Source: Antarctobacter heliothermus (GTDB lineage Bacteria; Pseudomonadota; Alphaproteobacteria; Rhodobacterales; Rhodobacteraceae). From it: a stretch of DNA of 64,000 bases. How positions within the stretch are numbered: the stretch's first letter is position 1; each line of letters begins with the position of its first letter. Shown here one piece after another: positions 10,949 to 18,288 of the stretch. The notes under the pieces were generated by a model. That model was not told the DNA's origin. It worked only from the letters and a program-made list of their open reading frames with translations, and made no database searches. The position numbers and the translations under genes were made by a program. The stretch is from contig NZ_CP022540.1 in the NCBI RefSeq assembly GCF_002237555.1, positions 806,001 to 870,000 on the forward strand, read 5' to 3'.

Positions 10949-11959
10949 TTGGGCGCATGGCAGGCATACCGTCTGAGGTTGCAGCGGAAACGCTGGCTTA
11001 TCCGCGCCTTTCGCAAACGGCGTGAATTGCGCCCGGTCGCCAATCGCACCGACCAAATCCGCCCCTCTGGCATCCTGCTGTTTTCGACCCAGCGCAATGA
11101 GGGCATCCGCCTGCCTTATTTCCTGCGATACTACCGTGAAATGGGTGTCAGCCACTTCTTCTTTGTCGACAATGACAGCACCGACGGGTCGCTCAACTAC
11201 CTTGCTGAACAACCGGATGTCTCTGTCTGGACCACGCAAGCCAGCTATAAACGCGCGCGGTTTGGCGTCGACTGGCTCAACTGGTTGCAAAGGCAATACG
11301 CGCATGGCCACTGGGCGCTGACCGTCGACCCGGATGAGTTCTTTCTTTATCCATTCTGCGACACCCGCCCCCTTAGCGCACTGACCGACTGGCTGGATGC
11401 CTCTTCGATCAAATCGTTCTCGGCGATGCTGCTGGACATGTACCCCAAGGGGCGGATTGATCAGCAACCCTACCGGGCCGGACAGGATCCGCTGGAGATC
11501 GCCAGTTGGTTCGATGCGGGCAACTATTCGATCCAAAAGAACCCGCAATTCGGCAACCTGTGGATTCAGGGCGGCCCGCGTGCGCGCATGTTCTTTGCCG
11601 ACAAGCCGAAACTGGCCCCGGCCCTGAACAAGATCCCGCTGGTGAAATGGGACCGCCGCTATGCCTATGTGTCCTCCACCCACAACCTGCTGCCGCGCGG
11701 GCTGAATCAGGTCTATGACGAATGGGGCGGCGAAAAGGCCAGCGGCCTGCTGCTGCACACCAAATTCCTGTCGACCTTTTCCGAAAAAGCCGCAGAGGAA
11801 TTGGACCGTGGCCAGCACTACGGCGCCAGCCGCGAATACATCGCCTATGCCGAAGGAGTGCAAGACAATCCGGACCTGTGGTGCAAATGGTCAGAGAAAT
11901 ACATCAACTGGCGCCAGCTTGAGATTCTCGGCCTCATGTCAAAGGGCAACTGGGCATGA
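10949..11959 (+). CDS. Glycosyltransferase family 2-like protein (Glyco_tranf_2_4 type)
   Basis: Protein of 336 residues starting at a TTG with a purine-rich stretch (AGAGGCAAGG) upstream. The core resembles bacterial proteins of the Glyco_tranf_2_4/GT92 type: ILLFSTQRNEGIRLPYFLRY, then the metal-binding DNDSTDGS (FFVDNDSTDG, about 71-80) and a DPDEFF motif near 130 (ALTVDPDEFFLYP). No membrane segment or signal peptide is seen. It overlaps the following GT14 gene by four bases (ATGA), so it belongs to the same transcript. The acceptor and donor are unknown. Confidence 0.8.
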   Translation: MGAWQAYRLRLQRKRWLIRAFRKRRELRPVANRTDQIRPSGILLFSTQRNEGIRLPYFLRYYREMGVSHFFFVDNDSTDGSLNYLAEQPDVSVWTTQASYKRARFGVDWLNWLQRQYAHGHWALTVDPDEFFLYPFCDTRPLSALTDWLDASSIKSFSAMLLDMYPKGRIDQQPYRAGQDPLEIASWFDAGNYSIQKNPQFGNLWIQGGPRARMFFADKPKLAPALNKIPLVKWDRRYAYVSSTHNLLPRGLNQVYDEWGGEKASGLLLHTKFLSTFSEKAAEELDRGQHYGASREYIAYAEGVQDNPDLWCKWSEKYINWRQLEILGLMSKGNWA

Positions 11960-13656
11960 GCGTGGGTGTCATCCTGTTGGTCCACACCGCCTTTGACCGC
12001 GCCGAACAGGTCGCCCGGCACTGGTCGCAGGGCGGCTGTCCGGTGGTGATCCACGTCGACGCCAAGGTGCCCAAGGACCGTTTCCGGGCTTTCCAACAGG
12101 CGCTGGCCGATCTGCCCGCCGTGTTGTTTTCCAAACGCCATCGCTGTGAATGGGGCACTTGGGGACTGGTCGCCGCCAGTCAAGACGCGTCAGAGCTGAT
12201 GCTGGACCGCTTTGCCGATGTGCGGCACGTCTACCTGTCGTCCGGCTCCTGTCTGCCGCTGCGTCCGGTGGATGAACTGCGCGCCTACCTTGCCGACCGC
12301 CCGCGCACCGATTTCATCGAAAGCGCGACAACCGCAGATGTTCCATGGACCGTCGGCGGGCTGGACCATGAACGCTTTACCCTGCAATTCCCGTTCTCAT
12401 GGCGCAAACACCGCTATCTGTTCGACAAATTCGTGGACCTGCAACGCGCCACTGGCTACACGCGCCGCATCCCCGAGGGGTTGACGCCCCACATGGGCAG
12501 CCAATGGTGGTGCCTGACGCGCAAAACCCTGTCTGCCATCCTGAATGACCCCGAACGGCCGCGCCATGACCGCTATTTCCGCCGCGTCTGGATACCTGAC
12601 GAAAGCTATTTCCAGACCCTTGCGCGGCTCTTTTCCACCCAGATAGAAAGCCGGTCGCTGACGCTGTCGAAATTCGACTTTCAGGGCAAACCGCACATCT
12701 TTTATGATGATCACCTGCAACTGTTGCGGCGTTCCGACTGTTTCGTCGCGCGCAAGATCTGGCCGCGCGCCAATCGCCTGTATGAGGCGTTCCTGACCAA
12801 CCCGAACACCGCCCAGCAACGGCAAGAGCCAAATCCGGGCAAGATCGACCGCATTTTTGCCAAGGCAGTGGATCGCCGGACCCGTGGCCGCCCCGGCCTG
12901 TATATGCAAAGCCGGTTCCCGCGCATGGGCTGGGAAAACGGCGTCACAGCCGGCAAATACTCGGTGTTCCAAGGCTTCTCCGAGCTGTTTCTAGGGTTTG
13001 AGGGCTGGGTGGCCAAGTCCACCGGCGCGCAGGTGCATGGCCACCTCTATGCCCCCGACCGGGCCGAATTCGCAGGTGGCGAAACGGTTGTCGCCGGCGC
13101 TTTGTCCGACAATGCGCTGGCACGGGACGGCAACCCCAAGGCGTTTCTGACCAACCTGTTGTGGAACACGCGCGGTGAGCGGCAGTGTTTCCAATACGGG
13201 CCATCGGACAATCCCGACGTGCTTCGCCATATGGCACTGGACCCGAACGCGCAGATCAGCGTGATTTCGGGCGCGTGGGCGGTGCCGCTGTATCAGTCCA
13301 AATCCGACTTTGCCGAAATCCGGGCAGAGGCCGCGCGCCTGCAACGGATAGAGGCCAAGATGCTGGATGAGTTGCGCAAACCCGACGTCAAGGCACGCAT
13401 CCGAACATGGACCATGGCCGATTTCATCGAGGCCCCAATGGAACCCTTGCAGACCCTGATTGACGAGATCGGGCAAAAGAACGCCCGCCGTCTGGCAGAG
13501 GCACCGCGCCTTGTGGATCTATCCGGTTTCGGCCAGTTCCTGCAAAACCTCAAGAACCAGGGGATGCACCCCTATCTGATGGGCGATTTCCCGGTGGACC
13601 CGATCCCCCGCAACCGCCCCGGCACCTCCCGAAAACCCTATCTCGTCAGGAAATGA
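11956..13656 (+). CDS. Beta-1,6-N-acetylglucosaminyltransferase-like protein (GT14) with extra C-terminal domain
   Basis: Protein of 566 residues. The first 280 are a GT14 'Branch' domain: MSVGVILLVHTAFDR at the N-terminus, YLSSGSCLPLRPVDEL, MGSQWWCLTRKTL and IPDESYFQTLAR. The C-terminal 280 residues form a separate domain (HGHLYAPDRAEFAGGE, then WNTRGERQCFQYGPSDNPD) that I recall only from rhodobacterial GT14 proteins described as DUF5927/DUF5928. It overlaps its upstream neighbour by ATGA and sits six bases before the sulfotransferase gene. A paralogue of the catalytic half is at 36241-37815, also next to a sulfotransferase gene, which suggests the two activities modify the same glycan. Confidence 0.83.
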   Translation: MSVGVILLVHTAFDRAEQVARHWSQGGCPVVIHVDAKVPKDRFRAFQQALADLPAVLFSKRHRCEWGTWGLVAASQDASELMLDRFADVRHVYLSSGSCLPLRPVDELRAYLADRPRTDFIESATTADVPWTVGGLDHERFTLQFPFSWRKHRYLFDKFVDLQRATGYTRRIPEGLTPHMGSQWWCLTRKTLSAILNDPERPRHDRYFRRVWIPDESYFQTLARLFSTQIESRSLTLSKFDFQGKPHIFYDDHLQLLRRSDCFVARKIWPRANRLYEAFLTNPNTAQQRQEPNPGKIDRIFAKAVDRRTRGRPGLYMQSRFPRMGWENGVTAGKYSVFQGFSELFLGFEGWVAKSTGAQVHGHLYAPDRAEFAGGETVVAGALSDNALARDGNPKAFLTNLLWNTRGERQCFQYGPSDNPDVLRHMALDPNAQISVISGAWAVPLYQSKSDFAEIRAEAARLQRIEAKMLDELRKPDVKARIRTWTMADFIEAPMEPLQTLIDEIGQKNARRLAEAPRLVDLSGFGQFLQNLKNQGMHPYLMGDFPVDPIPRNRPGTSRKPYLVRK

Positions 13657-13662
13657 TCCCCC

Positions 13663-15093
13663 ATGTCCCAGCGTTTCGACTGTTTCGTGATCTTCGCCGA
13701 GATGCGGACAGGCTCGAACTTTCTAGAGGCGAACCTGAACGCCTTTGACGGGCTGACCTGCCACGGTGAGGCGTTCAATCCACATTTCATCGGCTACCCG
13801 AATGCCGAGCATATCCTTGACGTGACGCTGGAAGAGCGGGACCGCACGCCCGCCACCCTGCTGGATCGTATCCGCACCGCCACGCCAGAGGGGCTGGGCG
13901 GGTTTCGCTACTTTCACGACCACGATCCGCGCGTTCTGGAGCCGCTGCTGACGGACCCGCGCACCGCCAAGATCGTGCTGACCCGGAACCCGGTCGACAG
14001 CTATGTCAGCTGGAAGATCGCGCAGGCCACCGGCCAGTGGAAACTGACCAACGTCAAGCGCCGCAAGGACGCGCAGGCGCATTTCGATGCCGAAGAGTTC
14101 GAGACGCATCTCGCCGAATTGCAGGCGTTTCAGGTGACATTGCTGCGCGCGTTGCAGACCACCGGGCAGACCGCTTTTTATGTCGCCTACGAGGATCTGC
14201 AGGACGTCGAGGTCATGAACGGGCTGGCGCAATGGCTGGGCATTGAGGCGCGACTGGACAGCTTGAACACCGCCCTGAAGCGGCAAAATCCGCAACCCGC
14301 GGCGAAAAAGGTCGACAACTACGTCGAGATGTCGGCCTCATTGGCGCGGCTGGATCGGTTCAACCTGTCCCGCACGCCGAATTTCGAACCGCGTCGCGGC
14401 CCCGTGGTGCCCACCTATATCGCCGCACGCGATACCCCGCTGTTGTATATGCCGATCCGGTCTGGCCCGGAACGCGCAGTTCGGCAATGGCTGGCGGCGC
14501 TGGACGGTGTGCGACTGGGCAAGCTGGCCGACAAGTTCACCCAAGGGTCGCTGCGCGGCTGGAAGCGCGACCGCCCCGGGCACCGCAGCTTTACCGTGAT
14601 CCGCCATCCACTGGCGCGCGCGCATGATGCCTTTTGCTCCAAAATCCTGACCACCGAAAAGGGCAGCTTTCCCGGCATCCGCAAGGTTCTGCGCCGTGCG
14701 CATGGCTTTCCCATCCCCGAGGGGGAACCGGGGGCCGACTACGATGTGAACGCGCACCGCGAGGCATTCACCGCCTGGCTTTCGTGGGTCAGGGCCAACC
14801 TCAACGGCCAGACCGCGTTGCGCGTCGATGGACATTGGGCCACGCAGGCCCAGTGCCTTGAGGGGATGGCAGAGTTCACCTTGCCCGACATGATCGTCCG
14901 CGAGGATGAGATGGAGGCCTATCTGCCCGCGCTTGCCCTGCAGGTTGGTCATGAAAACCCGCCCGATCCGGTGGCCGTTGCCAACAGCGCCCCCTATTCG
15001 CTGGCAGAGATCTACGACAACCAGATTGAGACGCTGGCCCGTGATGCCTATCAGCGTGACTATGTCATGTTCGGTTTCGATGATTGGGCCTGA
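13663..15093 (+). CDS. Sulfotransferase-like protein with two sulfotransferase-type halves
   Basis: Protein of 476 residues. The N-terminal half (about 1-250) resembles Stf0/NodH-type sulfotransferases: the 5'-phosphosulfate loop region EMRTGSNFLEANL at about 11-23, and the 3'-phosphate motif VLTRNPVDSYVSWKIA near 105-120. The C-terminal half looks like a second, more divergent sulfotransferase: LLYMPIRSGPERAVRQWL as a possible PSB loop, and FTVIRHPLARAHDAFCSKI, the classical RHP..R..S 3'-PB motif. Each half has the length of a small sulfotransferase. The product would transfer sulfate from PAPS to a glycan made by the upstream enzymes (inference). It is the last gene of the run. Confidence 0.75.
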   Translation: MSQRFDCFVIFAEMRTGSNFLEANLNAFDGLTCHGEAFNPHFIGYPNAEHILDVTLEERDRTPATLLDRIRTATPEGLGGFRYFHDHDPRVLEPLLTDPRTAKIVLTRNPVDSYVSWKIAQATGQWKLTNVKRRKDAQAHFDAEEFETHLAELQAFQVTLLRALQTTGQTAFYVAYEDLQDVEVMNGLAQWLGIEARLDSLNTALKRQNPQPAAKKVDNYVEMSASLARLDRFNLSRTPNFEPRRGPVVPTYIAARDTPLLYMPIRSGPERAVRQWLAALDGVRLGKLADKFTQGSLRGWKRDRPGHRSFTVIRHPLARAHDAFCSKILTTEKGSFPGIRKVLRRAHGFPIPEGEPGADYDVNAHREAFTAWLSWVRANLNGQTALRVDGHWATQAQCLEGMAEFTLPDMIVREDEMEAYLPALALQVGHENPPDPVAVANSAPYSLAEIYDNQIETLARDAYQRDYVMFGFDDWA

Positions 15094-15199: not shown

Positions 15200-15817
15200 T
15201 TACCGCTGCCCCCTTTCGACAAAACCCGGACCGTCAAACACCCGCACCGGATCACCGCGCTGGACCTGATGATGCAGCCAATGCGCCTGTCCGTCCCGTG
15301 TGGCCTTCGCCTCTGCCGCGTCGGCATCGGCCAAGGCCTGCAGGCGGGCAAGTGCCAGACGTCGGTTCTGATGCTGTGAGCGTTCGGCGCGGACGACAAC
15401 GGCATACTCTCCCCAACGCGCGCGGATCGCGCTGGAGGTTTTGTTCTGGTGCTGCCCGCCCGGCCCTCCGGCGCGGATAGCCACCATCTCGACCGCGCGC
15501 GGGTCGATTGCGGCACCGCGCGCGGCATCAGGCAGGCGAAAGACCTGCACAAACCAAGTTTTGCGTTTGTGACGCGGGCGCAGCGCGCTGGGGCAACGCC
15601 ACAACAACGACCCGGTCCAGCGCGCGGCCAAATCGTCGGCGCGCGCCCCGGACAGCACGGCCACCGCAGATACCGGCCCATTACGACCGCCACGGCAAAC
15701 CAGATCCAGCGTGACGCCCATTTCCGCGGCCTCTTCTTTCATGCGCGTCAGCACATGGCCCGTGGCTTGCTGGCATTCGCCCGGTCCATTGCCGCTGGAG
15801 ATCAACAGACAGGTCAT
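15200..15817 (-). CDS. prfH: Peptide chain release factor H
   Basis: Homologue of class I release factors, 205 residues, lacking the N-terminal and codon-recognition domains of RF1/RF2. It has the peptidyl-tRNA hydrolysis loop GGPGGQHQNKTSSA, with GGQ at 120-122. PrfH is known to release nascent peptides from ribosomes whose 16S rRNA has been cut in the decoding centre, so that its partner RtcB can reseal the rRNA. The gene overlaps the rtcB stop by four bases (ATGA), so the two proteins are made together. A start inside the rtcB end and a complete C-terminus indicate an intact gene. Confidence 0.92.
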   Translation of the reverse strand: MTCLLISSGNGPGECQQATGHVLTRMKEEAAEMGVTLDLVCRGGRNGPVSAVAVLSGARADDLAARWTGSLLWRCPSALRPRHKRKTWFVQVFRLPDAARGAAIDPRAVEMVAIRAGGPGGQHQNKTSSAIRARWGEYAVVVRAERSQHQNRRLALARLQALADADAAEAKATRDGQAHWLHHQVQRGDPVRVFDGPGFVERGQR

Positions 15818-16941
15818 CGGCGGCCCTCCCTGCTGGTCTTGAAGGTGATCAGCGGTGCAAACGCGGCCACCTCTTCTGCGAGGCCAAAGGTTTCAAGGTC
15901 GCGCAACACCGCGCCTGTGTCCTTGTAGGCGCTGCCCGCCTCTTCGATCAGCAGATCACGGTCAGTACAGATCACCCGCCCGCCAAAGCGTGTCTGGCGC
16001 ATCGCCTCCAGTTCCGACTTTACCCGGGGAATCCGCCCGTGCATCGCCGCACGGTCATAGCGCCGCCCGGCCCCGTGTGAGACAGACCCCAATGCCTCTG
16101 GCGGGCCGTCCGGCACCGCCATGAGATAGCTGAGGCTGTCCCGCGATCCGGCCAGCGGGGCCAGCCCCCTGTCCGGCGCGGCCGCGCCTTTGCGGTGCAG
16201 CCAGCCATCAGCCCGCCGTTCAAGGTGGTTGTGCGGCGCATCACAGATCAGCCGCGCATCACAGCGCAGCGCCTCTGCCGCGCCTTCGGCGATCAACGCG
16301 CGGTTTGTCCGCGCCCAGACCTGCGCCGCATCGTGCAAGGCAACGTAGGTCTCTGCCGCGTCGCTGCCGGGCGCAAACCCGTCATTCCAGGTTTCCGCAA
16401 TGCCACTGAATACCGCCGCCCCCTGCCCGCGCGATCCGCTGTGGACCAGCAGGCATAGGTCACCTGCCTGCAGCCCCAACCGGGATGCCACTGTCGGATC
16501 GGCCAGCGCATCGACCACCTGAACCTCGCAAAAGTGGTTGCCGCCGCCCAGCGTGCCCAGTCCATAGGGGCCGAACCGCGCCGCATCGGTCCCGGCAATC
16601 GCCGCGGCACCGGTTGCGGGGTCTGCGCCCGTCTCCAGCGCCTGCAACCGGCGCGCGGCCTTGTCCAGCTTTAGCTTGCGGCGCGGCAGGTCCAGCCGGA
16701 ACAGCGCCATGCCACAGCCGATGTCCGGCCCGATCAGTTGTGGATAGATCCGGTCCGCCAGAAACGCGCCACCTACGGGGCCAAAGCGGCCCGGGTGCAG
16801 GTCCGGAAACGCGGCCACCGCCCGCATCCCGGCCCAATCCGCGACATCATGAAGTTGCTCGACCGCCCGGCCTTCGATCCAGGCACTGTCGGAATAGAAT
16901 TCACAGACACGCGCAGGTGTCCGAATGGGAGAATTGCCCAT
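15814..16941 (-). CDS. rtcB: RNA-splicing ligase RtcB (PrfH-associated RtcB2 type)
   Basis: GTP- and Mn-dependent ligase that joins RNA 2',3'-cyclic phosphate (or 3'-phosphate) ends to 5'-OH ends. It has 375 residues, shorter than archaeal RtcB but normal for the PrfH-linked subfamily. Metal and active-site motifs are FPDLHPGRFGPVG (45-57), GPDIGCGM (71-78, metal Cys76), LGGGNHFCEVQ (about 130), LVHSGSRGQG (about 165) and SVSHGAGRRYDR. Co-occurrence with prfH marks it as the repair enzyme for ribosomes cleaved by decoding-centre nucleases such as colicin E3-type toxins. No rtcA, rtcR or archease lies nearby. The upstream leader is described separately. Confidence 0.93.
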   Translation of the reverse strand: MGNSPIRTPARVCEFYSDSAWIEGRAVEQLHDVADWAGMRAVAAFPDLHPGRFGPVGGAFLADRIYPQLIGPDIGCGMALFRLDLPRRKLKLDKAARRLQALETGADPATGAAAIAGTDAARFGPYGLGTLGGGNHFCEVQVVDALADPTVASRLGLQAGDLCLLVHSGSRGQGAAVFSGIAETWNDGFAPGSDAAETYVALHDAAQVWARTNRALIAEGAAEALRCDARLICDAPHNHLERRADGWLHRKGAAAPDRGLAPLAGSRDSLSYLMAVPDGPPEALGSVSHGAGRRYDRAAMHGRIPRVKSELEAMRQTRFGGRVICTDRDLLIEEAGSAYKDTGAVLRDLETFGLAEEVAAFAPLITFKTSREGRR

Positions 16942-16944
16942 AGG

Positions 16945-17034
16945 TCCGTCTTTCTCAAAACAGAGGTACGGCCAGACTTGGCCGCAAGACGGATCGTCAG
17001 ATGGGCTGGAAACCTGCCCCGCAGGGCAAAACGG
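16945..17034 (-). promoter_or_regulatory. Structured leader of rtcB-prfH (nested hairpins covering the start region)
   Basis: In RNA sense, TGCCC-TGCG-GGGCA (17028 to 17015) is followed by a nested structure. TCCGTCTT (16993-16986) can pair with AAGACGGA (16952-16945), enclosing a perfect CGGCCA/TGGCCG hairpin (16984-16979 with 16974-16969). The distal arm AAGACGGA ends three bases before the rtcB ATG and contains the only Shine-Dalgarno-like bases (ACGGA), so the outer stem would hide the ribosome site. The pairings are seen in sequence; a regulatory role is inference. Confidence 0.5.
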
Positions 17035-17085
17035 TCAGCGGCCCCGACGATCCAAGGAAATGGCGTCAATGTGCATAGCGGTCAT
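17035..17085 (-). CDS. Putative 16-residue leader peptide upstream of rtcB
   Basis: A short frame, MTAMHIDAISLDRRGR then TGA, starts at the ATG at 17083-17085. It has a near-perfect ribosome site (AGGAGG at 17093-17098, seven bases upstream), far better than that of rtcB itself. It lies 94 bases before the rtcB start, between a candidate promoter and the hairpins at 16945-17028. It matches no peptide I know. A leader ORF whose translation controls the downstream hairpins would suit an operon that senses defective ribosomes, but this is inference. Confidence 0.45.
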   Translation of the reverse strand: MTAMHIDAISLDRRGR

Positions 17086-17126
17086 GTGCGGCCCTCCTTT
17101 TATATCGGGTGTGACGGTTCGACGGG

Positions 17127-17155
17127 CGTATACCCCGCTGCCGCCTTTGCGCCAA
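17127..17155 (-). promoter_or_regulatory. Candidate sigma-70 promoter of the rtcB-prfH operon
   Basis: On the minus strand TTGGCG (17150-17155), a 17-base spacer and TATACG (17127-17132) resemble a housekeeping promoter. The predicted transcript start near 17120 would place the whole leader ORF in the RNA. No sigma-54 (GG-N10-GC) element of the kind that drives E. coli rtcBA was found in the interval. Confidence 0.45.
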
Positions 17156-17197
17156 CGGGGGAATTCCGGACCATAGGGGCGCTGTGGCCCCTTTGCC

Positions 17198-17662
17198 TCA
17201 GGCGGCCTTTTCGGCCTCGGCTGCGGTCAGGATGGTATAGAGCGTCGCAGGCACCGGATTGGCCCGCAATTTGGCGCACAGCGCCGGGTTACGCAGGCTG
17301 CGCGACACCAGCGCCAACGCCTTGAGGTGCTCGACCCCGGCCTCTTCGGGGGCGAAGAGGCCAAAGATGATATCCACCGGCTGGCGATCGACAGAGTCAA
17401 AGTCGATCGGTTTCTCCAGCAGGATAAAGGCCCCCACCACGGAGTCGACTCCTTGAATCCGCGCATGCGGCAGGGCGACACCGTGGCCGACACCTGTCGG
17501 CCCCAGTGCCTCACGCTCCATCAGCGCCTCTAGGATATTCGGTGACCTCAGGCCATACGCGCTTTCGGCCAAGTCAGAGACATCATGCATCAGGCGCTTC
17601 TTGCTGGAGGTCGAAGTGATAACTTTCACAGCCGTCGGCTTGATGAGATCGACAAACTTCAT
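17198..17662 (-). CDS. ptsN: Nitrogen-regulatory phosphotransferase protein EIIA(Ntr)
   Basis: Fructose-type EIIA domain, 154 residues, that receives phosphate from the NPr/EI-Ntr system and controls potassium, nitrogen and stress responses by protein contacts. The phosphorylated histidine is H66 in GVALPHARI. The C-terminal part (DIIFGLFAPEEAGVEHLKALALVSRSLR) is typical. It is downstream of hpf on the same strand with a 62-base gap, matching the conserved hpf-ptsN order of proteobacteria, though rpoN, often next to hpf, is absent here. Confidence 0.94.
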   Translation of the reverse strand: MKFVDLIKPTAVKVITSTSSKKRLMHDVSDLAESAYGLRSPNILEALMEREALGPTGVGHGVALPHARIQGVDSVVGAFILLEKPIDFDSVDRQPVDIIFGLFAPEEAGVEHLKALALVSRSLRNPALCAKLRANPVPATLYTILTAAEAEKAA

Positions 17663-17724
17663 GGGTCTTGCCTGTGTCTGAGGCGCAGTTGTCGCGCGGA
17701 TCGGGCTCCGGTGGCGGTTGGACC

Positions 17725-18288
17725 TTATGGATCAATCCATCCGATGTTGCCATCGTCCCGCCGATACACGACGTTCACGCCGTCCTTTTTCTCGTTTCGA
17801 AACACAAGGACCGGCGCTCCCGCCAATTCCATCTGCATCACGGCCTCCCCAACCGACAACGACGGAATGCGCGTTTGCATCTCCGCCACGATTATCGGCT
17901 GTAGCGTCTCAGGTTCGTCATCGCCCGAATCCGCTTCGTTGGCGAGGATATACGAGGCTGCCCCAATATGTTCAACCGGGTCGGGGCGGTCCTTGTGATG
18001 ATCCTTCAGCCGGCGTTTGTAACGGCGCAGCTGCTTGTCCATCTTTTCGGCGCAGGACTCAAACGCCGCATAAATCTCGGTCGCACTTCCCTTTGCGGCC
18101 GCGTTCAGCCCGCTCGACAGGTGAACGTTCGCTTCGCAGTGGTATTCATGAGCCGCCTTCGAAAAAACCACCGTCGCGTCGGTCGGGCGCTGACCGTACT
18201 TGTCCAGCACGCTGCCCAGTTCGGTTGTGACGTGCTCCTGAAGGGCGTCGCCAATGTCGATGTGTTTTCCCGTGATCTGATAGCGCAT
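17725..18288 (-). CDS. hpf: Ribosome hibernation promoting factor, long form
   Basis: Binds the 30S subunit and promotes inactive 100S ribosome dimers in stationary or stress conditions. It has 187 residues, the long form: an N-terminal HPF/RaiA fold (MRYQITGKHIDIGDALQEHV, to about 105), a variable acidic linker, and a C-terminal dimerisation domain (PSLSVGEAVMQMELAGAPVLVFRN). It precedes ptsN. The 267-base gap to lptB contains a candidate promoter with a perfect TTGACA box, so hpf may be expressed separately from the lpt genes. Confidence 0.94.
   Translation of the reverse strand: MRYQITGKHIDIGDALQEHVTTELGSVLDKYGQRPTDATVVFSKAAHEYHCEANVHLSSGLNAAAKGSATEIYAAFESCAEKMDKQLRRYKRRLKDHHKDRPDPVEHIGAASYILANEADSGDDEPETLQPIIVAEMQTRIPSLSVGEAVMQMELAGAPVLVFRNEKKDGVNVVYRRDDGNIGWIDP

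Follow-up and report, generated by a model that had tools for sequence, protein, structure and literature searches.

A conserved leader RNA before the rtcB2–prfH operon of Antarctobacter heliothermus, a likely translation sensor and counterpart of the Pseudomonas PA5471.1 leader

In Pseudomonas aeruginosa, the 13-amino-acid leader PA5471.1 lies ~250 bp upstream of PA5471 (armZ), which encodes an RtcB-like protein and sits beside PA5470 (prfH). As far as the accessible parts of the sources go, this leader mediates the response to ribosome-targeting drugs, and the current model, transcriptional attenuation, is said to need further study (PMC12057347, PMC3516279 and PMC13041342); the leader is credited to Morita 2009, as cited in PMC12057347 and PMC13041342. 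The available text of PMC13041342 reports that ArmZ rises when position 3 carries an amber codon or when positions 1–226 are deleted, and that full translation is the OFF state, said to form a 3:4 terminator hairpin, with stalling being ON. ArmZ is described as the MexZ anti-repressor of P. aeruginosa (PMC12057347, in part), and the Escherichia coli K-12 homologue ykfJ as inducible by 4-azaleucine (PMC3516279, in part). Here we describe a leader preceding the rtcB2–prfH operon in a stretch of 64,000 nucleotides (nt) from Antarctobacter heliothermus (GCF_002237555.1, contig NZ_CP022540.1, positions 806,001–870,000; hereafter the window). We judge it rather probable that this leader is a cis-acting translation sensor of rtcB2–prfH and that it corresponds, in alphaproteobacteria, to PA5471.1 of armZ–prfH. 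The output of this alphaproteobacterial variant is probably rtcB translation.

In erm-type translational attenuators, the position of the ribosome on a short leader open reading frame (ORF) alters the pairing of the downstream ribosome site, and the switch requires a specific nascent peptide that arrests the ribosome when the drug is present. In the trp and his attenuators, alternative 1:2, 2:3 and 3:4 pairings are set by ribosome position. The rtcB2 leader resembles the former in that the position of a ribosome on the leader ORF is predicted to affect pairing of the downstream ribosome site, and the latter in its alternative 1:2, 2:3 and 3:4 pairings. With PA5471.1 it shares a short ORF with a strong Shine–Dalgarno (SD) sequence before an RtcB-family gene and prfH, as well as alternative pairings of leader segments, as judged in the window by comparison and folding; by analogy, it may also be a constitutive leader responding to impaired translation. 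The operon and the upstream elements in the window are the following.

16941–15814, minus strand: rtcB2, RNA ligase of the RtcB family, PrfH-associated type (375 amino acids; TIGR03073, PF01139)
15817–15200, minus strand: prfH, peptide chain release factor H (205 amino acids; TIGR03072, PDB matches 7sa4 and 9mor)
17085–17035, minus strand: leader ORF of 16 codons plus TGA, MTAMHIDAISLDRRGR
17098–17093, minus strand: leader SD sequence AGGAGG, invariant in all 19 sequences of alignment A3, which includes the window
17127–17155, minus strand: weak candidate promoter TTGGCG, 17 nt, TATACG, seen by eye, with similar bases in Mameliella leaders

An earlier reading of this DNA from its letters alone (the sequence-only reading) had described an rtcB/prfH overlap with intact active-site motifs and a 16-codon leader ORF at 17035–17085 with AGGAGG, and both descriptions were confirmed: ATGA is common to the rtcB2 stop and the prfH start, GPDIGCGM, GGGNHF and SHGAGR are all intact in the RtcB translation, and GGQ is intact in that of PrfH. 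The window RtcB exceeds the TIGR03073 cut-off (307 bits against 271.8), and the window PrfH falls slightly below the curated TIGR03072 cut-off (161.6 against 166.65 bits). PrfH is still the best name because the GGQ motif is intact and the best PDB match is the PrfH chain 7sa4 (residues 2–201, E 8.3e-34), the top solved-structure matches being the PrfH chains 7sa4 and 9mor. A motif scan found no promoter-like site in the window leader. All six genomes of the genus to which the window belongs carry rtcB2, and with a threshold of E 1e-40 it was found in 20 of the 394 family genomes; prfH appears damaged in two genomes of the genus (G005:C16:198627-199238, with one in-frame TGA, and G003:C107:197042-197646, in two overlapping pieces).

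The leader ORF is widespread among relatives. A genome-collection scan gave 112 stretches encoding an RtcB2 relative, of which the best 80 were kept (77 distinct loci); without the five most distant, and with duplicates among these and the genome loci merged, the set comprised 79 distinct alphaproteobacterial upstream regions. A second set comprised 30 loci, mostly gammaproteobacterial (the gamma set), of which L138 belongs to the window's class. Under a rule that was set after the leaders had been inspected (ATG, SD match of at least 4 nt, 10–18 codons, end at least 40 nt before rtcB), an equivalent ORF was found in 72 of the 79 alphaproteobacterial loci, where dinucleotide shuffles gave an expectation of 2.0, and in 21 of the 30 loci of the second set (1.2 expected), E. 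coli included. With a stricter SD match of 6 nt, the counts were 32/79 (0.1 expected) and 19/30 (0.0 expected) respectively. Of 43 window ORFs that reach 250 codons or more (not all genes), one satisfied the rule, namely rtcB2 itself. The distance from the leader stop to rtcB is 93 nt in the window and about 50–150 nt across leaders. No rule-defined ORF was found in seven alphaproteobacterial loci (L053, L054, L071, L074, L091, L094 and L110) and in nine of the second set. At two loci with a leader, L059 (Maliponia aquimaris) and L126 (Tritonibacter mobilis), no prfH match was seen within 3 kb beyond the rtcB2 match, which in L126 is limited to residues 10–91.

The encoded peptide is not conserved. 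Over 155 alphaproteobacterial pairs of equal ORF length and 70–98.5% identity, compared without gaps and sharing ancestry with one another, the ratio of non-synonymous to synonymous proportional differences (pN/pS) was 0.82 in the leader against 0.18 in rtcB codons 21–80, and pS itself was 0.19 in the leader against 0.51 in rtcB; seven gamma pairs gave 0.88 and 0.13 for the pN/pS of leader and rtcB respectively. In alignment A1, made of 20 leaders from the gamma set, a TTGCAG/TTGCGG motif has the same reading frame in 18 leaders and a different one in the other two, and the distance from the first base of TTTGC (or TTGC) to the ORF end is 18–26 nt (23 nt in 16/20). As far as can be judged from sequence comparison, the pN/pS contrast, the low pS of the leader and the motif read in two frames point to a leader held at the RNA level rather than the peptide level. 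A peptide-specific arrest leader was considered and rejected on the unconserved peptide sequence. In this the rtcB2 leader differs from erm-type attenuators; unlike the trp and his attenuators, its peptides contain no run of regulatory codons that we could find by eye, its output is probably translation and the state sensed would be a general failure of elongation.

The window leader RNA of 298 nt folds to −128.5 against a shuffle mean of −110.8 (z −3.2), beating 200 of 200 shuffles. Its segments and hairpins are listed below.

17092–17109, minus strand: segment 1, leader SD region (CCCGA...AAGGA), complementary to the middle and late ORF (pairing tests)
17043–17058, minus strand: segment 2, middle and late ORF TCCTTGGATCGTCGGG, complementary to segments 1 and 3 (alignment A3, pairing tests and folding)
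17016–17027, minus strand: small predicted hairpin directly after the leader stop, GCCCTGCGGGGC (sequence and fold)
16986–16998, minus strand: segment 3, in which GACGATCC (16998–16991) pairs with the ORF and TCCGTCTT (16993–16986) with the rtcB ribosome site
16968–16985, minus strand: hairpin P5, GC-rich, conserved with compensatory changes (97.4% of A3 cells paired); a short T-rich stretch comes next
16945–16952, minus strand: segment 4, AAGACGGA, the rtcB ribosome-binding region (folding, and the own-versus-other test with segment 3 given below)

Since GACGATCC and TCCGTCTT share 3 nt, their pairings are mutually exclusive. In the predicted fold of the free RNA, the inner 1:2 helix AAGGA:TCCTT has a probability of 0.93 and coexists with 2:3, and the outer helix CCCGA:TCGGG, which overlaps 2:3 by two bases, has a probability of 0.0; thus the clear exclusion in the window is that between 2:3 and 3:4. 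No match of the leader to Rfam was found at 16800–17400 (E up to 1), where the sole hit lies on the strand opposite to ptsN and below its gathering score, and none of 10 related loci gave an Rfam family at gathering score.

These pairings were assessed with an alignment-free test, in which the duplex energy of two segments within a species is compared with that between species, using representatives with limited shared words. For 14 gamma representatives, the 5′ untranslated region (UTR) with the ORF (1:2; p=0.0065), the ORF with the downstream segment (2:3; p<5e-5) and the downstream segment with the rtcB ribosome site (3:4; p=0.0069) were all significant, and three control combinations were not (p=0.37–0.83). 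Among 47 alphaproteobacterial representatives, the test was significant for the UTR with the ORF (p=5e-5) and for the UTR with the ribosome site of rtcB (z −7.0, p<5e-5), and the controls were insignificant (p=0.79–0.81). The 14 window-type leaders gave p=0.0015 for UTR:ORF, p=0.012 for ORF:downstream, p=0.0275 for segment 3 with the ribosome site, p=0.058 for the 5′ UTR with the ribosome site and p=0.56 for the control.

Covariation was also counted on alignments, with structures drawn from the same sequences and 500 shuffles that leave relatedness in place. In A2 (32 Roseobacter-group leaders, without the window or its group), 85.5% of cells were paired and both sides had changed in 21 of 34 pairs (14.0 in shuffles, reached in 0/500); cells changed on both sides numbered 76 against 28.1 (0/500) and further pair types 49 against 41.6 (2/500). 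A hairpin equivalent to P5 is also present in A2. For A3, the corresponding values were 16 against 6.3 for cells (0/500), 5 against 2.8 for pairs (8/500) and 16 against 13.0 for types (14/500), and A1 gave 20 cells against 8.1 (0/500); the pair and pair-type counts are the two least prone to relatedness. The comparison among relatives did not refute the sequence-only reading: they retain the ORF, its SD and several of the helices, with compensatory changes.

The covarying rtcB-site helix also bears on the idea that RtcB2 or PrfH binds the leader RNA through rRNA mimicry, as an autogenous control with the ORF secondary. The element UCGUAAC of Roseobacter-type leaders and CCGUCACACC of the window resemble the 16S decoding centre. 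However, UCGUAAC is explained by its pairing with UUACGA near rtcB, both partners changing together, the window's CCGUCACACC is not retained in relatives, and the ORF and SD are retained in most loci. Decoding-centre mimicry was therefore rejected, UCGUAAC being one strand of the covarying helix, and protein binding as a whole seems to us very improbable.

The leader was also searched for with covariance models. The model built from A2 (R2) finds it in the window at 17127–16933 with 28.7 bits and E 3.5e-6 over 48 sources, and the gamma model from A1 (R1) finds the same place with 14.4 bits and a weak E of 0.1; the conserved rtcB start ATGGGCAAT is part of both models and contributes to their window scores. 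Over 149 genomes of the family of G634, R1 matched 20, namely all 19 rtcB2 carriers, 14 of which were in its training set, and one weak case (G1181, 4e-4). Over the 394 genomes of the window's family, R2 matched 17, 14 of them beside rtcB2 (11 of these in training); under stricter filters it missed six of the 20 rtcB2 genomes of this family, the window's own included. In G315 and G394, two of the three R2 matches away from rtcB2, the leader is followed by an rtcB2 stub and then by a BCS1-like AAA ATPase. Because the matches track rtcB2, including the stubs and ATPase loci, the comparison assigns the leader to the rtcB2–prfH operon. Loci outside the training alignment were also matched by R1 at E 2.6e-6 or better (L136, L174, L177 and L178), and G093, the genome of L054, was matched by R2. 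R1 matched L138 and L140 weakly (E 0.2 and 1) and L167–L170 not at all. At Nonomuraea L189, the sole non-proteobacterial locus examined, where RtcB and PrfH relatives are present, it gave nothing up to E 1.

The leader of L200, which lies outside the training set and is found by R1 at E 5e-9, reads MIQFSTLCRLRLA (13 amino acids, with Gln3 and Phe4) and lies 254 nt upstream, which fits the description of PA5471.1; in its genus, the leader occurs in all 12 rtcB2-bearing genomes among 25. In E. coli, at least 80% of a 271-nt leader query was found in 5305 of 5426 genomes, the query having a median of three matching places per genome so that lesser matches are uninformative. In strains K-12 (L191) and P276M (L192), the leader is intact before remnants of rtcB2 and prfH, and K-12 has extra sequence between leader and rtcB2, placing the leader ATG at −240 compared with −112 in CFT073.

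The effect of ribosome position was calculated by masking the footprint of a ribosome and folding the remaining leader, with a default start footprint to −19. In the window, the predicted probability of the 2:3 helix is 0.98–1.0 in the free RNA and with a ribosome at the start, codon 3 or codon 5; it drops to 0.68 when the ribosome is at codon 7 and to 0 from codon 9 onwards. That of 3:4 is 0–0.01 with early ribosomes, rises to 0.58 at codon 7, dips to 0.14 at codon 9 and reaches 0.53–0.88 over codons 11–16. In A1, the energy needed to open the rtcB site, stop minus start, was positive in 17/20 leaders (mean 1.74 kcal/mol), and in all 14 gamma representatives opening the site cost more with late ribosomes than with early ones (2.15 kcal/mol on average; 12/14 by stop minus start alone). 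Late minus early was likewise positive in 14/16 leaders of Hyphomicrobiales and others and in 8/11 of group B.

Taken together, these results suggest the following mechanism for a translation sensor. Comparison supports a short ORF with a strong SD, pairing 1:2 of the SD region with the ORF, pairing 2:3 of the ORF end with the downstream segment, and an rtcB ribosome site that would be covered either by 3:4, in the gamma set and the window type, or by the 5′ UTR, in Roseobacter-type leaders. By calculation for the window, 2:3 would hold with a ribosome at the start or first codons, and with a ribosome near the stop it would yield to 3:4, closing the rtcB ribosome site. Healthy ribosomes, reaching the stop, would then keep rtcB2–prfH low. 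Ribosomes that initiate without elongating, owing to a cut decoding centre, drugs or a shortage of charged tRNA, would remain near the start so that 2:3 holds, rtcB2 is translated and prfH is coupled through ATGA; the position of the ribosome would matter and the peptide itself would not. We infer the trigger and direction of the switch in alphaproteobacteria, including its coupling to decoding-centre damage, and ribosomes cut in this way would presumably be able to start but not to elongate on the leader.

A number of results weigh against this mechanism. The rtcB ribosome site of the window is predicted to be unpaired at 0.30–0.31 with early ribosomes against only 0.18–0.25 at codons 11–16, passing through 0.28 at codon 7 and 0.33 at codon 9, and the free RNA already favours 2:3, so that a state without ribosomes would look ON. 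Over all 74 alphaproteobacterial leaders, there was no net effect (stop minus start 0.04 kcal/mol, positive in 40/74). Late minus early was small in the window's group (0.37 kcal/mol, positive in 4/8), and its sign was mostly opposite in Roseobacter-type leaders (positive in 4/14 of group C and 4/10 of C2); in group E it was positive in 3/7. A start footprint extended to −38, which was picked after the default result and with which alone the Roseobacter-type sign flips, gave stop above start in 10/14 of C, 9/10 of C2 and 5/7 of E, the window's group remaining at 4/8. The pairing and covariation statistics ignore phylogeny. The mixed set of 47 alphaproteobacterial representatives gave insignificant values for ORF:downstream (p=0.088) and downstream:ribosome site (p=0.135), and the gamma 1:2 helix showed no covariation in the MAFFT register. 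In A1, pairs (7 against 4.7, 41/500) and types (15 against 15.8, 407/500) were insignificant, which slightly lowers our confidence in the best explanation. Finally, the common ancestry of alpha- and gammaproteobacterial leaders is unproven because the gamma model gives the window only E 0.1.

A single switch direction across all lineages is thus unsupported with one footprint, as only the post hoc longer one aligns most Roseobacter-type leaders. By these folding models, the gamma set gives good backing to a rule in which a ribosome waiting at the start means ON and one that has finished means OFF; the window shows this rule at the level of its helices, and for Roseobacter-type leaders it is unsettled. 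The opposite sign in the latter would suit plain translational coupling, in which leader translation unfolds the structure and just increases rtcB2 expression without any sensing of damage: for most C and C2 leaders, less energy is predicted to be needed to open the rtcB site when the ribosome is close to the stop than when it is at the start (footprint to −19). However, the sign is reversed in the gamma representatives (14/14) and in Hyphomicrobiales and others (14/16), the leader stop at about 50–150 nt before rtcB is far for coupling, and full translation is reported as OFF in P. aeruginosa (PMC13041342, in part); we regard such coupling as improbable. The translation-responsive switch proposed in the sequence-only reading stands as the best reading, on conservation, covariation and a PA5471.1 leader described likewise in the accessible sources, whereas the folding calculations show no net effect over the 74 alphaproteobacterial leaders and the opposite effect in the Roseobacter type. 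With the comparison among relatives, the idea of a leader switch has much stronger support than a single window could provide.

A second way of using ribosome position is transcription attenuation, the proposal published for P. aeruginosa (PMC12057347 and PMC13041342, in part), in which the 3′ leader helix would be a terminator and ribosome position would decide whether transcription reaches rtcB2. The window does contain one terminator-like site, P5 with its T-rich tail (16986–16967), and T-rich bases follow P5 in some relatives, as seen by eye. Nevertheless, one such site is near chance (0.4 expected), and the same simple scan, which would miss Rho-dependent termination, finds none in E. coli L163, L134 and the PA5471.1-like L200. 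The T-run after P5 is mostly missing, again by eye, in the Roseobacter-type leaders of A2, and the pairing of the rtcB ribosome site itself covaries. We consider attenuation of transcription unlikely, though the least so of the alternatives. With one weak site among four leaders scanned, an intrinsic terminator was not adopted as a conserved part.

The translation sensor favoured here would depart from the PA5471.1 proposal in two respects: the window is without a convincing terminator, and the rtcB ribosome site is paired by segment 3 in the window and by the 5′ UTR in its Roseobacter-type relatives. The sequence-only reading had known of no description of such a leader for this gene pair. 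That claim of no precedent is wrong because PA5471 (armZ) is an RtcB-like protein beside prfH, and PA5471.1, which precedes the pair, is a published attenuator answering to ribosome-targeting drugs. Such a leader outside Pseudomonas is not described in the accessible parts of PMC1586002, PMC9223846, PMC12057347, PMC13159725, PMC13041342, PMC3884212 and PMC3516279, the search having covered the open literature. What we have not found described is the spread of the leader, its covarying segments, its constraint at the RNA rather than the peptide level and the way in which alphaproteobacterial leaders pair with the rtcB ribosome site.

The surroundings of the operon vary. A relative of the BCS1-like ATPase follows prfH in 26 loci (22 after merging duplicates; for example, L116, L121, L088 and L072), starting 6–20 nt after the prfH match in 25 of them and 279 nt after it in L124, and is thus a third gene behind rtcB2–prfH in Roseobacter relatives; the window is without it. 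In two genomes, rtcB2–prfH is lost except for an N-terminal stub, with leader and ATPase retained, the ATPases of L193 (1560–3181) and L194 (1440–3019) having PF08740, PF00004 and PF25426. A weak R2 match, L195 (G421:C178:14825-14900, E 0.0024), comes from a genome that is not among the rtcB2 carriers listed and has no rtcB2 or prfH match in the surrounding 3.4 kb. On a Klebsiella conjugative plasmid (L164, IncC), rtcB2–prfH is present with its leader, and sul1 is the next annotated gene after prfH. In the window, the minus-strand order is hpf, ptsN, a 256-nt gap, rtcB2 and prfH, with hpf and ptsN directly upstream and in the same direction (17198–18288); convergent with prfH on the plus strand (11956–15093) are a Core-2/I-branching glycosyltransferase with DUF5927 and a sulfotransferase-family protein.

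18288–17725, minus strand: hpf, ribosome hibernation, S30AE (family match)
17662–17198, minus strand: ptsN (family match)

More broadly, the rtcB2–prfH leaders of alpha- and gammaproteobacteria may form one undescribed, ancient RNA family sensing ribosomes that start but cannot finish a short ORF, a proposal that we hold to be about as likely as not. PA5471.1 would then be a local instance of a family found in nearly every E. coli genome, and the alphaproteobacterial read-out would have moved to the rtcB ribosome site, via segment 3, the 5′ UTR or perhaps, in Bradyrhizobium and Microvirga, the leader SD. The finding ties a known antibiotic-responsive Pseudomonas leader to a ribosome rescue-and-repair operon found in many bacteria, and it suggests that the leader originally served to detect broken ribosomes and bring about their repair. 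It also provides a sensor of failed elongation that has defined segments and can be tested, and the intact K-12 leader before its gene remnants means that the sensor can be studied apart from the genes.

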